A stretch of 64,000 bases of DNA. Source: OCS116 cluster bacterium AG-390-I16 (lineage in GTDB: Bacteria; Pseudomonadota; Alphaproteobacteria; MED-G09). A program made the translations under genes and the position numbers. Positions 1 through 7,033 of this stretch are shown one piece after another. Within the stretch, counting starts at the first letter, position 1, and each line of letters opens with the position of its first letter. Below the pieces are notes generated by a model. It was not told the DNA's origin and did not search any database. It saw nothing but the letters and a program-made list of their open reading frames with translations. The stretch spans positions 1 through 64,000 of the forward strand of contig QCGZ01000001.1 in NCBI GenBank assembly GCA_003279705.1. Reading direction: 5' to 3'.

Positions 1-243
1 AAAATTGTAATACCTGATGTTATTATAATTCCATTGTTAAGTTTTGACTTAAGTGGTACTAGACTTGGTATGGGTCTAGGTATTTATGACAGAAGCCTTC
101 CATTTTATGAATTAAGTGATAAATATGGGCTGGCTTTTTCCAATCAGAAGACAAAGAGGCTTATTAGAGAAGAGCATGATTTTTTGATTGATGGAGTAAT
201 TACAGAAAAGAACTTTTTAAGTTTTGGAAGGAAGAAAAATTGA
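1..243 (+). CDS. 5-formyltetrahydrofolate cyclo-ligase family protein, C-terminal part (truncated by window edge)
   Basis: Open frame from base 1: KIVIPDVIIIPLLSFDLSGTRLGMGLGIYDR..., matching the FD..G.RLG.G.G.YDR motif of the family; stop at 241-243. Confidence 0.8.
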   Translation, partial: KIVIPDVIIIPLLSFDLSGTRLGMGLGIYDRSLPFYELSDKYGLAFSNQKTKRLIREEHDFLIDGVITEKNFLSFGRKKN

Positions 244-1046
244 GAATATTATTTTTAGGCGATATTGTTGGCAGATCAGCTAGAGATTCTGTCATAAAAA
301 AAATGCCTGATATTAGAAGAGATTATTCTTTGGATTTTGTAATTGTTAATGGTGAAAATGCTGCTGGTGGATTCGGAATAACGGAAGATATTTGTGAAAA
401 ACTTTTTTCTTCAGGTGTTGATTGTATCACAACTGGTAATCATGTTTGGGATCAGAGAGAGCTCTTAAAGTATATTGATAATGAAAATAGACTGTTACGA
501 CCTATTAATTTCCCTAGTGAAACACCTGGTAAAGGTCTGAATATTTATAATAATCAATTTGGTCGTATCCTTGTTGTAAATGTCATGGGAAGACTCTTTA
601 TGGAGTCATTAGACGATCCTTTCTCAGCTATAGAGAAAGTATTATCTGAAAATCATTTGGGTGAAAATTGTGAGGCTATAATTATTGATATACATGCAGA
701 AACTACCTCAGAAAAAACTGCTATGGGTCATTTTTGTGACGGAAAAGTCAGCTTAGTTGTAGGAACTCATACGCACATACCCACTGCTGATTATCAGATT
801 TTACCATACGGAACCGCTTACCAAACCGATGCAGGTATGTGCGGTGATTATGACTCAGTTATAGGTATGGAAAAAACTGAACCTATAAGAAGGTTTGTTG
901 AAAAAACACCTGGGGGAAGATTTAATCCTGCTCAAGGTGATCCAACCCTTTGCGGAGTAATTATTGAAACTTCAAGTGATGGGTTGAGTGAATCAATTGA
1001 ACCGTTTAGAGTTGGAGGTATTCTGTCTCAAACAAAGAAACAATAA
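240..1046 (+). CDS. YmdB-family metallophosphoesterase (TIGR00282-like)
   Basis: MRILFLGDIVGRSARD...VNGENAAGGFGIT...TTGNHVWD...VGTHTHIPTAD motifs; TTG start overlapping previous stop. Confidence 0.85.
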   Translation: MRILFLGDIVGRSARDSVIKKMPDIRRDYSLDFVIVNGENAAGGFGITEDICEKLFSSGVDCITTGNHVWDQRELLKYIDNENRLLRPINFPSETPGKGLNIYNNQFGRILVVNVMGRLFMESLDDPFSAIEKVLSENHLGENCEAIIIDIHAETTSEKTAMGHFCDGKVSLVVGTHTHIPTADYQILPYGTAYQTDAGMCGDYDSVIGMEKTEPIRRFVEKTPGGRFNPAQGDPTLCGVIIETSSDGLSESIEPFRVGGILSQTKKQ

Positions 1047-1080: not shown

Positions 1081-1824
1081 ATGGCAGGACATTCCAAATT
1101 TAAAAATATACAATTTAGAAAAGGGGCTCAAGATAAAAAGAGAGCTAAAATTTTTGCGAAAATTTCTAAAGAAATTACTGTTGCAGCTAAGTTAGGTTTA
1201 CCTGATCCAAGTGCAAATCCAAGATTACGTTCTGCAATTGCTCTTGGTAAAGCTCAAAACATGCCAAAGGACAATATAGAAAGGGCTATAAAAAAGAGCT
1301 ACGATGAGAATGGTGAGAATTATGAATCTGTTCGTTATGAAGGCTTTGGTATTGAAGGAGTTGGGATAATAGTTGAAACATTAACAGATAATAGAAATAG
1401 AACTGCAGGAGATATTAGATCAGTTTTTTCAAAACATGGTGGTAATTTGGGAGAGACTGGTTCCGTTAGTTTCATGTTTAATCATTTAGGTATAGTAAAA
1501 TTTTCAAAATCAGCTGGTAATTTTGATGATATTTTCGAGATTGCTAATGATGCAGGAGCTCTTGACTGTGATTTATTAGATGATGAGTATGAGATATCTT
1601 GTTCAACTGACGATTTGCATCAGGTTACGGAAAATATCGAAAATACTCTTAGTTGTGTTATTACCTCTCAATTGACTTGGAAACCATTAAATCAAATACC
1701 TTTAAATAAAGAAAAAGCTCTAAAAATAATAGAAATGATTGAAGTCTTAGAGGATCATGATGATGTACAAGAAGTTTTTGCAAATTTTGATTTACCTGAA
1801 GAGGTTTTTAATGAATTACAGTAG
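1081..1824 (+). CDS. yebC: YebC/PmpR (TACO1) family protein
   Basis: MAGHSKFKNIQFRKGAQDKKRAKIFAKISKEI...NMPKDNIERAIKK... is the family signature. Confidence 0.95.
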   Translation: MAGHSKFKNIQFRKGAQDKKRAKIFAKISKEITVAAKLGLPDPSANPRLRSAIALGKAQNMPKDNIERAIKKSYDENGENYESVRYEGFGIEGVGIIVETLTDNRNRTAGDIRSVFSKHGGNLGETGSVSFMFNHLGIVKFSKSAGNFDDIFEIANDAGALDCDLLDDEYEISCSTDDLHQVTENIENTLSCVITSQLTWKPLNQIPLNKEKALKIIEMIEVLEDHDDVQEVFANFDLPEEVFNELQ

Positions 1825-1838
1825 GAAAATTTTTTAAA

Positions 1839-2345
1839 ATGCCTTCACCACAAAAAGTTAAAGGAAAATCATTTGAAAATGCAAAAGCAAAATTTTTAAC
1901 AGAAATTTATGGTGAAAAATTTATAAGAGTGCCGACATCTGGTGCCTTTTTAGGTGGACAAAATTATGATAGAAGGCACACAATGTCTCAAGGTCAGGTT
2001 ATGGCTTTTAAAGGCGATATAATACCTCCTGATGATTGGATTTATTTCAATTGTGAATGTAAATTCTACAAAGATTTTAAATTTCATTTATTATTCAATG
2101 AATCTAAAATATTAGATAGTTGGATTGATGAAACTTTGGCAACGGCTAACGAAAATGACCTAAACATTATTTTTATGAAATTTAATAATATTGGAGAGTA
2201 TGTTGCTTATCAAAGGCGAGAAAAATTTAAAGTTAAAAATTTTGTTTCATATTCAAAGGGATGGAATTTTACTTCTCATGAAAGTTTTTGGAATGATTAT
2301 AATATGAGTAAAATAAGAGATAGGTCCAAGGGAATTAACCTTTAA
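1839..2345 (+). CDS. PD-(D/E)XK nuclease-like protein, Hjc-type Holliday-junction-resolvase-like
   Basis: 168 aa; GKSFENAKAKFLTEIYGEKFIRVPTSGA...KGDIIPPDDWIYFNCECKFYKDF: E..., R.P.SGA, GD and E.K elements in the order seen in Hjc-like resolvases. Confidence 0.55.
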   Translation: MPSPQKVKGKSFENAKAKFLTEIYGEKFIRVPTSGAFLGGQNYDRRHTMSQGQVMAFKGDIIPPDDWIYFNCECKFYKDFKFHLLFNESKILDSWIDETLATANENDLNIIFMKFNNIGEYVAYQRREKFKVKNFVSYSKGWNFTSHESFWNDYNMSKIRDRSKGINL

Positions 2346-2371: not shown

Positions 2372-3658
2372 ATGAAAAATAAAAAACCAATGAAAGATTT
2401 ACCAGAGGTAAAACTTTTTAATAAATATATCGATGGTAAATCTATTGCTCTTGCTGTTTCAGGTGGTCCTGACTCTACTGCAATGATGCAAATAGCTGCT
2501 TTTTCAAAAAAAATAAAAAATAGTAATGTTACAGTTATTGTCGTTGATCACGGTCTGAGGAAAGAGTCAAAAAATGAAGCAGAAATTGTTTGTCAAAATG
2601 CAAAATTACTTGGTTTTAAGTTTAAAACTCTTAAATGGGATGGTGTTAAACCAAAAACTCGTATTCAAGAAATAGCAAGAAAAACAAGATATAAATTAAT
2701 AACCTCTTGGTGCAAAAAAAAAGGAATTGAAAAGCTTTTTCTGGCTCATCATCTTGATGATCAAGTTGAAACCTTTTTTATGCGCCTTGGTAAGGGGTCT
2801 GGCGTTGATGGTCTTGCTGTTATGAGTTTTGTTACAGAAACATCTACACTTAAATTAGTGAGGCCTTTTTTAGAAATACCAAAGACTAGATTTATAAAAA
2901 TACTAGATACCTCCAATCTTGAATGGATTTCGGACCCAAGTAATTTTAACTCAGATTATAAAAGATCAAGGATTAGAAAAATTTTACCAATTTTATCTAA
3001 AGAGGGAATTAATTCTAAACAAATTGGATTAGTTATAAAAAGGATGCGATTAGCAAAAGATGCTTTGGATACTCAAACTAGTTTTTTGTTAGAAAAATAC
3101 TTATCAAATGTAGATAATGTGGCATATTTTTTGAATAAAAATTTATTGAAAGTCTCAGCAGAAAAAGAGATATTGCTTAGGGTTTTAGAAAAAATTTTTA
3201 TGAATATTTCGGGGTCTATTTATCCTCCAAGGAGAAATAAACTTGAACATATTTTATCTTGGATTTTAGAAAATAATAATGTTGCAGCCAAAACTTTAAC
3301 TGGTGTGGTTGTTAGAAAAAGAAAAAATGAATTTATTTTTTATAGAGAGCCAGAGGACTGTTATAAATCAGTTAATATTAGACCTCTGACTTCAAGGTAC
3401 AGTTGTTGGGATGATAGATTCTTTTTAAAGGCTAATAAATCTAATAATCTACAAATAAGAGCTCTTGGTGATGTTGGAATTACAATACTAAAGGAAGAAA
3501 GGATACTAAAGAGACAAGGTTTTCAAAATGTTCCTTTATCTGCATGGAAAACTGTTCCAGGAGTTTGGTCAAAAAAAAGACTTATTTCAGTGCCAACTTT
3601 AGGTTATTGTAAACAAAAAGATTTAAAAATTTATATAAAATCGAATAAAATTATATAA
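2372..3658 (+). CDS. tilS: tRNA(Ile)-lysidine synthase
   Basis: PP-loop ALAVSGGPDSTAM, VDHGLRKES, LAHHLDDQVETFFMRL; adjacent to ftsH. Confidence 0.9.
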   Translation: MKNKKPMKDLPEVKLFNKYIDGKSIALAVSGGPDSTAMMQIAAFSKKIKNSNVTVIVVDHGLRKESKNEAEIVCQNAKLLGFKFKTLKWDGVKPKTRIQEIARKTRYKLITSWCKKKGIEKLFLAHHLDDQVETFFMRLGKGSGVDGLAVMSFVTETSTLKLVRPFLEIPKTRFIKILDTSNLEWISDPSNFNSDYKRSRIRKILPILSKEGINSKQIGLVIKRMRLAKDALDTQTSFLLEKYLSNVDNVAYFLNKNLLKVSAEKEILLRVLEKIFMNISGSIYPPRRNKLEHILSWILENNNVAAKTLTGVVVRKRKNEFIFYREPEDCYKSVNIRPLTSRYSCWDDRFFLKANKSNNLQIRALGDVGITILKEERILKRQGFQNVPLSAWKTVPGVWSKKRLISVPTLGYCKQKDLKIYIKSNKII

Positions 3659-3735: not shown

Positions 3736-5655
3736 GTGAATAACGGAAATTTAAGAAATATTATAGTTTGGGTCATATTGGCATTTTCTTTATTAGGTTT
3801 GTATAACTTAATTGATAATCCTATTGTTTCAAAAAATCAGTCAGAGATTACTTTTTCTCAACTCTTAGCTGAAGTCGATGCAGGTAATGTCGTAGATGTT
3901 GAGATTTCTGGTGATAATATTTCTGGACATTATTCAGATGGACGATCTTTCAAAACTTTTGCTCCTTCCGATCCAACCTTAATTGATAGGTTATACAATA
4001 GAGGTGTATCAATTTCTGCTAAACCAGAAAAAGAAGGTGGTTCAATTTTTCTGAATATACTTATTTCATGGTTCCCAATGTTATTATTGATTGCTGTATG
4101 GATCTTTTTTATGCGTCAAATGCAAGGTGGTGGGGGAAAAGCTATGGGCTTTGGTAAGTCAAAAGCTAAACTTTTAAATGAAAAAAGCGGTAAAGTTACA
4201 TTTGAAGATGTTGCTGGCGTTGATGAAGCAAAAGATGACCTACAAGAGATAGTTGAATTTCTAAAAGATCCTTCAAAATTTCAAAGATTAGGCGGTCGTA
4301 TTCCAAAGGGAGCTTTATTAGTAGGACCTCCAGGTACAGGTAAAACATTACTTGCAAGAGCCATTGCTGGCGAAGCAAATGTTCCATTTTTTACTATTTC
4401 TGGTTCTGATTTTGTTGAAATGTTTGTTGGTGTTGGAGCTAGTCGTGTAAGGGATATGTTTGAGCAGGCAAAAAAGAATGCTCCTTGCATAATTTTTATT
4501 GACGAAATTGATGCTGTAGGAAGATCTCGAGGTGCTGGTTTAGGTGGTGGAAATGATGAAAGAGAACAAACTCTTAATCAGCTTTTGGTTGAAATGGATG
4601 GATTTGAAACAAACGAAGGTATTATTCTAATTGCTGCTACAAATAGACCTGATGTTCTTGACCCTGCTTTGTTAAGACCGGGAAGGTTTGATAGACAAGT
4701 AGTAGTTCCAAACCCAGATATAATTGGTAGAGAAAAAATATTAAAGGTTCATATTCGTAAAGTTCCTATATCATCAGATGTTGATATAAGGGCAATAGCA
4801 AGAGGTACACCAGGATTTTCGGGTGCAGATCTTGCCAATATTGTAAATGAAGCTGCACTTCTTGCTGCAAGAAGAGGTTTAAAGTTGGTTTCTAATGCAG
4901 AATTTGAAGATTCGAAAGATAAAGTTATGATGGGTCCAGAACGAAGATCAATGGTTATGACAGAGGAAGAAAGAACTTTAACAGCTTATCACGAAGCTGG
5001 TCACGCACTTGTTTCTTTAAATTATTCTTCATCTGACCCTATCCACAAGGCAACAATTATTCCAAGAGGTCGTGCTTTAGGAATGGTTATGCGTCTACCT
5101 GAAAGAGATCAAATTTCTATTACCAGAGAGAAAATGTTTGCAAATCTTGCTGTTGCAATGGGAGGTAGAATTGCTGAGGAAGAAGTATTTGGTTACGATA
5201 AAGTTACTTCAGGTGCATCATCAGATATTAAACAGGCAACTGACCTAGCTAGAGCTATGGTAATGCAGTATGGAATGTCTGAAAAATTAGGTTTTTTATC
5301 TTATGGTGATAATGAAGAGGAGGTTTTTCTTGGAAGATCTGTTGCAAGAACTCAAAGTATGTCTGAAGAAACTCAAAAACAAGTAGATTCAGAGGTTAAG
5401 GTTATAGTTGACAAATCATATAAAGATGCTGAAAAAATAATTAAAGATAAAAGAAAAGATTTGGATATTATCGCTAAAGGGCTACTTGATTATGAAACAT
5501 TAACAGGTGATGAAATAATTAATCTTTTAAAAGGTATAGATCCTACCAGAGAAGATCCTTCCGATGATGATACAGGTGGAAAAACTTTATCAGGCTCTGT
5601 TCCCAAAACAGGCGGAAAAGCCCAAAAAACAGAACCAGGTCTTCAAGGTACTTAA
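3736..5655 (+). CDS. ftsH: ATP-dependent zinc metalloprotease FtsH
   Basis: Walker [12 protein letters not shown] region, zinc site HEAGHA; GTG start. Confidence 0.97.
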
Positions 5656-5677: not shown

Positions 5678-7033
5678 TTGAACAAAAAATTCTTTGGTAC
5701 CGATGGTATTCGTGGGACTGTAAATGAGTCATATTTAACAGTAGATACAGCTCTAAAATTAGGTATAGCTGCTGGAAAAGTATTTACAAGAGGTCCTCAT
5801 ATTCACCGCGTTGTAATAGGCAAAGATACAAGAGTATCTGGTTATATGCTTGAAACAGCTTTAACATCAGGCTTTACATCTGTAGGAATGGATGTTTTTT
5901 TATTTGGTCCTATTCCAACGCCAGCAGTTGCCTTTTTAACTCAAGCATTAAGAGCTGATATTGGAGTAATGATAACAGCCTCTCACAATACATATGAGGA
6001 TAATGGATTTAAATTATTTGGACCTGATGGATATAAACTTTCCGATAAAAAAGAACTAGAAATTGAAGAGTTAATGTTATCAAAAGACCTGCTAGAGTTT
6101 CCACGATCAGAATATATTGGTAGGGCTAAACGAATAGACGACGCACAAGCTAGATATATTGAATATGCTAAAAGATCTTTTCCAAAAGATAAAACTCTTG
6201 AAAATATAAAAATTGTTTTAGATTGCGCTAATGGAGCTTCTTATAAAGTTGCACCAGAAACATTTTGGGAGTTAGGTGCGAAAGTAACGGTAATCGGTAA
6301 TCAACCAAATGGTAAAAATATTAATTTAAACTGCGGTTCTACCAATACTGACCTATTAAAAAAAATAGTTGTTGAAGAAAGAGCTGATATTGGAATAGCT
6401 CTCGATGGTGATGCCGACAGAATGATTATTGTCGATGAGAAAGGAGAAGAGGTAGATGGCAATCTTTTGTTCGCTTCTATTGTTAAAAATTGGAACGATA
6501 GAGGTATTCTTGAAAATAAATCTGTAGCTTCAACGATTATGGCTAACTTTGCATTAGAAAATTATTTATCAGGAATAGGAATTGATCTAATTCGTACAAG
6601 TGTTGGAGACAGACATTTAGTTAAAAGTATGAGAGAAAATAACTTAAAAATAGGTGGAGAACCTTCGGGGCATATAGTGATGAGTAATTTCGGTACAACA
6701 GGAGATGGGCTTATTGCTTCTCTTCAAGTTTTATCTATGATGTGTTCTGAAGACAGACCCATTAGTGAGCTCGTTAACTTATTTGAACTTTATCCTCAAA
6801 AAAATATATCTATACCAATAGGTGAAAATAATCCGCTTAATGATCCAATTGTAAAAAAAGTTATTAAAGAACAAGAATCATTTTTAATTAATAAAGGTAG
6901 AATTGTTGTCAGAGAAAGTGGAACAGAACCAATTATTCGTGTTATGGTTGAGTCAAAAGAAGAAAAAATCATAAATTATATTTGTGAAAAGATTGTTTCT
7001 AGCATCGAAAAGTCTCAAGAGAAAAAGAATTAA
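5678..7033 (+). CDS. glmM: Phosphoglucosamine mutase
   Basis: KKFFGTDGIRGTVN, TASHNTYEDNG, DGDADR, RESGTEPIIRVM; TTG start; follows ftsH. Confidence 0.95.
   Translation: MNKKFFGTDGIRGTVNESYLTVDTALKLGIAAGKVFTRGPHIHRVVIGKDTRVSGYMLETALTSGFTSVGMDVFLFGPIPTPAVAFLTQALRADIGVMITASHNTYEDNGFKLFGPDGYKLSDKKELEIEELMLSKDLLEFPRSEYIGRAKRIDDAQARYIEYAKRSFPKDKTLENIKIVLDCANGASYKVAPETFWELGAKVTVIGNQPNGKNINLNCGSTNTDLLKKIVVEERADIGIALDGDADRMIIVDEKGEEVDGNLLFASIVKNWNDRGILENKSVASTIMANFALENYLSGIGIDLIRTSVGDRHLVKSMRENNLKIGGEPSGHIVMSNFGTTGDGLIASLQVLSMMCSEDRPISELVNLFELYPQKNISIPIGENNPLNDPIVKKVIKEQESFLINKGRIVVRESGTEPIIRVMVESKEEKIINYICEKIVSSIEKSQEKKN

Follow-up and report, generated by a model that had tools for sequence, protein, structure and literature searches.

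RuvAB has been described as nearly universal in RecA-bearing bacteria, being missing from only two RecA-bearing genomes of 117 (PMC1193525). Non-orthologous replacement of a resolvase is known from the Firmicutes, in which RecU stands in for RuvC and works with a retained RuvAB (PMC1193525). RecU itself has a PD-(D/E)XK fold. In Escherichia coli, the prophage resolvase RusA, which is silent in the wild type, efficiently replaces RuvABC provided that RecG is present (PMC5055574). Among phage enzymes, Hjc_15-6 cleaves four-way junctions, with a proposed Glu10-Asp40-Glu53-Lys55 site (PMC8805305), and several jumbo phages have been reported without a recognised resolvase (PMC7824862). Here, we describe a gene of marine PS1/OCS116 Alphaproteobacteria that very likely displaced ruvC-ruvA-ruvB in situ in the ancestor of this family and whose product is very likely a Holliday junction resolvase, phage-derived and with a PD-(D/E)XK fold of the Hjc type; junction cleavage is inferred.

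Like RecU, the PS1 nuclease is a PD-(D/E)XK-fold protein that appears to have replaced RuvC non-orthologously. In contrast to the Firmicutes, however, PS1 lacks RuvAB as well, and the replacing gene lies in the ruv slot. The likeness to RusA is a functional analogy, that of a phage-type resolvase proposed to act with RecG and without RuvAB (PMC5055574); the two families are unrelated, and, unlike the silent RusA gene, the PS1 gene is a conserved, single-copy gene of a housekeeping locus. The phage nucleases of the PDDEXK_15/PHROG_244 group (T5-like D14, SPO1 gene 91-like and PA5oct gp342) belong to the same family, with 40–66% identity to the nearer members and a common E / R / SG / D / E-x-K layout, but, whereas those genes belong to phage genomes, the PS1 gene is fixed in the chromosome of a cellular lineage, at the site of ruvCAB. 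The catalytic order is that of Hjc_15-6, with E13-D60-E73-K75 as the corresponding residues, whereas the insert between motifs I and II and the C-terminal part are longer than in either Hjc_15-6 or archaeal Hjc.

The nuclease gene between yebC and tilS

The window, by which we mean the whole 64,000-nt stretch of DNA analysed, contains a 168-aa open reading frame (ORF) with an ATG at 1839 and a stop codon at 2343–2345 (Table 1). It is separated from yebC by 14 bp and from tilS by 26 bp, gaps too short to leave space for ruv remnants beside it. A chance ORF is ruled out by matches in Pfam, PHROG and tblastn searches and by the low pN/pS of the gene within the genus (0.045–0.11). At moderate divergence, dN/dS is roughly 0.03–0.06, similar to or below that of yebC, which shows purifying selection and therefore a maintained, vertically inherited function. 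TilS diverges much faster (36–57% identity between groups, dN/dS of about 0.2) than FtsH, YmdB, YebC and the nuclease. The window contig begins inside the gene preceding ymdB.

Table 1 Features of the nuclease locus and of the second nuclease type. Coordinates refer to the window unless a locus is named.
Feature	Coordinates	Strand	Basis
PDDEXK_15 Hjc-fold nuclease, phage-type, 168 aa; proposed sole Holliday junction resolvase (HJR)	1839..2345	+	ORF, Pfam, PHROG, tblastn, alignment, model, structure search
Codon of E13, helix 1 glutamate, motif I	1875..1877	+	Invariant in 43/43 rows; model helix 10–24
R30-V-P-T-S34-G35-A36; R30, S34, G35 and A36 invariant	1926..1946	+	Alignment and model; loop 34–45 of low confidence
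G59-D60, motif II, predicted metal-binding Asp	2013..2018	+	D60 invariant, G59 ≥90%
E73-C74-K75, motif III, E-x-K	2055..2063	+	Invariant; strand 70–77 in model
yebC; directly upstream of ruvC in relatives	1081..1824	+	Pfam; 25/30 ruvC loci
ymdB-like phosphoesterase gene, conserved upstream neighbour	240..1046	+	Pfam YmdB E = 8e-103; order kept in ruvC-bearing relatives
tilS, downstream neighbour; ybgC intervenes in sister genera	2372..3658	+	Pfam ATP_bind_3; L068, L069, L071
ftsH, in conserved block	3736..5655	+	ORF and conservation across PS1 loci; name from sequence, not scanned
glmM, in conserved block	5678..7033	+	ORF and conservation across PS1 loci; name from sequence, not scanned
PHROG_2002 nuclease, G040	L164:2263-2571		yebC-tolQ slot
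PHROG_2002 nuclease, G047	L165:1143-1511		yebC-tolQ slot

Family membership is shown by the Pfam family PDDEXK_15 (PF24608, ‘Phage putative PDDEXK endonuclease’), which the window protein matches with E = 2.8e-22 and 79.8 bits, above the curated cut-off of 27, as do all 43 members of our alignment. The protein also matches PHROG_244, labelled ‘RusA-like Holliday junction resolvase’ (E = 1.8e-13). Pfam detects no RuvC (PF02075) domain and, despite the PHROG label, no RusA (PF05866) domain; neither Hjc (PF01870) at E ≤ 10 nor RecU (PF03838) up to E = 10 is matched, although 14 of the 43 relatives touch Hjc weakly and below threshold (best E = 2.3e-3). NCBIfam gave no match, and phmmer of the single protein against PDB sequences returned only chance matches (heat shock factor). 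The ‘RusA-like’ label of PHROG_244 thus seems misleading, given that no RusA domain was detected and that the fold match is of the Hjc type.

The alignment shows the catalytic layout directly: E13, R30, S34, G35, A36, D60, E73 and K75 are invariant across the 43 relatives, with G59 kept in at least 90%, and E13, D60, E73 and K75 constitute the catalytic residues of a PD-(D/E)XK enzyme.

To describe the fold, we used an AlphaFold2 model of the nuclease (pLDDT 81.9, pTM 0.80). Archaeoglobus fulgidus Hjc provides 12 of the top 13 PDB matches of this model in Foldseek (best E = 2.4e-3, probability up to 0.98). In a comparison with viral structures, SPO1 gene 91-like and D14 proteins are among those matched. 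The Foldseek values are marginal, with no PDB match below 1e-3, and residues 34–45 of the model are unreliable; this poorly modelled segment may account for the modest values. A profile search against PDB sequences places Hjc_15-6 first, weakly (E = 0.35). Within these margins, the model predicts an Hjc-type fold, as the top solved-structure match is Hjc rather than RNase H or another fold.

An earlier note, made from the sequence alone, had reported a 168-aa ORF between yebC and tilS with E / R-x-P-x-SG / GD / E-x-K residues, and both the ORF and the residues are confirmed. Its reading of the product as an Hjc-like, virus-type nuclease is supported by the phage origin and by the structure comparison, in which Hjc matches came first and no unrelated fold was found, but the protein falls outside the Hjc family as defined by sequence.

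Phage relatives of the nuclease

Searches with tblastn find relatives in jumbo phages (E of about 5e-38, 45% identity over 96%). Named phages with relatives at 40–46% identity comprise the Pseudomonas PA5oct group, Salicola SCTP-2 and Sinorhizobium Phosso, and one such relative is annotated ‘D14 protein/putative resolvase’. In total, relatives occur on 524 viral contigs; none was found on plasmids. Among the best 80 viral contigs, the fetched flanks contain T4 gp46/gp47-like recombination genes in 79 and a gp55-like sigma factor gene in 68. The gp46/gp47-like neighbours provide an independent pointer to a role in recombination, inferred from gene neighbourhood.

In a phylogenetic tree, the PS1 proteins are monophyletic (99/84) and lie inside the phage diversity, where their clade joins its nearest relative, a marine phage protein of 66% identity (100/100). 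Several branches are long, and the finer placement is therefore unsure. Taken together, the phage matches, the viral contigs and the tree show computationally that the PS1 nuclease is phage-derived. A resolvase role for PDDEXK_15 would fit the jumbo phages without a recognised resolvase (PMC7824862), and it predicts a function for the T5 D14-like nuclease family, which is apparently untested: the open-access literature that we searched contains neither a biochemical or genetic test of any PDDEXK_15 member nor a description of RuvABC replacement by such a nuclease.

Distribution and position in the PS1/OCS116 family

A scan of one genome per species returned ten cellular relatives (74–96% identity), all from marine PS1/OCS116, the family of the window host, and one likely phage contig. 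Consistent with this, a PDDEXK_15 search of 385 genomes of the class gave over-threshold matches in the PS1/OCS116 family only. A 45% relative on a contig of a Cloacimonadota MAG (L072:2734-3267) lies beside PhoH-like, AAA and HNH-like ORFs; we did not count it as a second cellular case, as these neighbours suggest a phage contig binned with the MAG.

The family is shown to lack RuvABC: RuvC, RuvA (RuvA_N) and a strong RuvB (RuvB_N) match are each found in none of its 18 genomes, and RuvC is present in 74 of 78 genomes of the class outside it. Because the window genome is 77% complete, this absence rests on its relatives. RusA is likewise absent from all 18 genomes. All six family genomes that are at least 93% complete encode both RecA and RecG, and RecG is full length and over the cut-off in 13 of the 18. 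Family RuvB_N matches of E ~1e-6 were read as general AAA proteins and rejected as RuvB, since true RuvB elsewhere scores 1e-50 to 1e-82. Secondary RuvB_N matches of E ~1e-11 to 1e-16 in frames of 420–500 aa, probably RarA, occur in most other genomes and are missing from the PS1 family (G000–G017, best RuvB_N ~1e-6); RarA has possibly been lost too.

Wherever yebC is assembled in the family (11 of 11 genomes), the nuclease gene follows it directly, and the seven genomes without the nuclease are also without yebC. Three of these (G010, G012 and G013; 83–96% complete) were considered as counter-examples and rejected. In addition to yebC, G010 lacks tilS, and the G012 and G013 contigs end inside or beside ybgC/tilS, indicating that the locus is simply unassembled; G010 and G013 are two of the six most complete family genomes. 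PS1 assemblies often break within a few kb of the locus (G003 C21, G009 C211, G011 C19, G012 C4 and G013 C27).

Comparison with other Alphaproteobacteria shows that this position is the former ruv site. At 25 of 30 sampled ruvC loci, the gene just upstream, in the same orientation, is yebC; in six of eight outgroup loci, ruvB is followed by a ybgC homologue; and the ancestral order in relatives is yebC-ruvC-ruvA-ruvB-ybgC. Two PS1 sister genera (L068, L069 and L071) have yebC-nuclease-ybgC-tilS, in which ybgC encodes a ybgC-like thioesterase. The nuclease gene therefore occupies the site of ruvCAB, and the order very likely arose by exchange of ruvC-ruvA-ruvB for one gene between yebC and ybgC, followed by loss of ybgC in the window genus, where it is absent between the nuclease gene and tilS (2345–2372). 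No relatives of TolQ, TolR or Pal were found in the window, though other lineages have the tol-pal block at this position. The earlier claim that ruvC often lies beside yebC thus holds for Alphaproteobacteria. Of the two options that the note had left for RuvC, replaced or supplemented, the evidence favours replacement, as the entire family lacks RuvC, RuvA and RuvB and the search for an intact ruvC that it had proposed found none in the 18 genomes.

Proposed role, rival explanations and a second nuclease type

In the mechanism that we propose, RecA would make joint molecules, and migration of the four-way junction would fall to RecG instead of RuvAB. The nuclease would bind the junction as a dimer and nick a pair of opposing strands; E13, D60 and E73 would hold the Mg2+, and K75 would lie at the scissile phosphate. 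Ligase would seal the products. Junction cleavage, dimerisation, the partnership with RecG and the support of recombination in the cell are inferred only. If the proposal is correct, PS1, a free-living lineage that has RecA and RecG, lacks RuvABC and carries a phage resolvase at the ruv locus, mirrors in nature the E. coli experiment with RusA and RecG, and it allows a direct test of whether cells can do without branch migration by RuvAB.

The rival explanation that survives best, although we consider it unlikely, is that junctions are resolved by YqgF/RuvX or some other, unrecognised nuclease and that the PDDEXK_15 protein has another task, such as processing flaps, forks or branched DNA in general. 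YqgF, a RuvC-fold protein that could still act as a resolvase, occurs in 14 of the 18 genomes of the family and in each of the six that are at least 93% complete; furthermore, phage resolvases are typically promiscuous on branched DNA (PMC3864405), favouring a general role. However, YqgF co-occurs with RuvC or RecU in most bacteria, with no resolvase activity shown in the survey (PMC1193525), and its presence therefore leaves the loss of RuvABC unexplained. Moreover, it is the PDDEXK gene that took the exact ruvCAB position, and junctions should be among the substrates even of a nuclease that acts on branched DNA in general.

Still less plausible is that the gene encodes a nuclease carried as cargo or for defence, whether restriction-like or anti-phage, and lies after yebC by chance. 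In favour of this are the phage origin of the gene and the PD-(D/E)XK fold, which many restriction enzymes also have, and the earlier note had allowed for a restriction-like or nicking enzyme. This alternative is unsupported: the nuclease matches no defence family in PADLOC, no methylase or other defence gene is found among its neighbours (ymdB, yebC, tilS, ftsH and glmM), and its phage relatives lie near recombination genes. In addition, the gene is single copy, fixed in position and vertically inherited over three genera under the selection described above.

That RuvABC is present but was missed in incomplete genomes, with the phage-type nuclease merely a supplement, is also very improbable: the window genome and several fragmentary relatives are incomplete and G010 and G013 lack the yebC locus, but none of the three genes was detected in 18 genomes, while full-length RecG over the cut-off was recovered from 13 of them, and the canonical ruv locus is assembled in 11 genomes with no ruv gene there.

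The preferred reading, replacement of RuvABC by a phage nuclease, is strengthened by a second refilling of the slot after yebC. Two other alphaproteobacterial genomes, G047 (one contig, 99% complete) and G040, are also without RuvABC, and their slot between yebC and tolQ contains a different protein of 102 to 122 aa that matches PHROG_2002, ‘Holliday junction resolvase’. In the alignment of this type, E / R / LSG / D / E-x-K is invariant, and archaeal Hjc is among the top matches of a model of a viral PHROG_2002 relative; profile comparison does not join the PHROG_2002-type protein to PDDEXK_15 (probability 5%). The G040 protein is 62–73% identical to its nearer marine viral proteins, whereas the G040 and G047 proteins are 58% identical to each other, so two separate acquisitions are possible. 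Phage Hjc-fold nucleases of two different types have thus come to fill the same locus, one in PS1 and the other in G040/G047, with junction cleavage inferred for both. A bolder reading, which we regard as likely, is that, in streamlined marine Alphaproteobacteria, phage Hjc-fold resolvases repeatedly replaced the whole of RuvABC, each time at this one locus: once in PS1 and at least once more, by the PHROG_2002 type, in G040 and G047. Such repeated replacement, if true, would mean that free-living bacteria can dispense with RuvAB branch migration.

A further genome, G036 (L174), an assembly of 390 contigs, contains RuvA and RuvB, no RuvC match and a RusA protein (E = 4e-27), which may mark another resolvase replacement.
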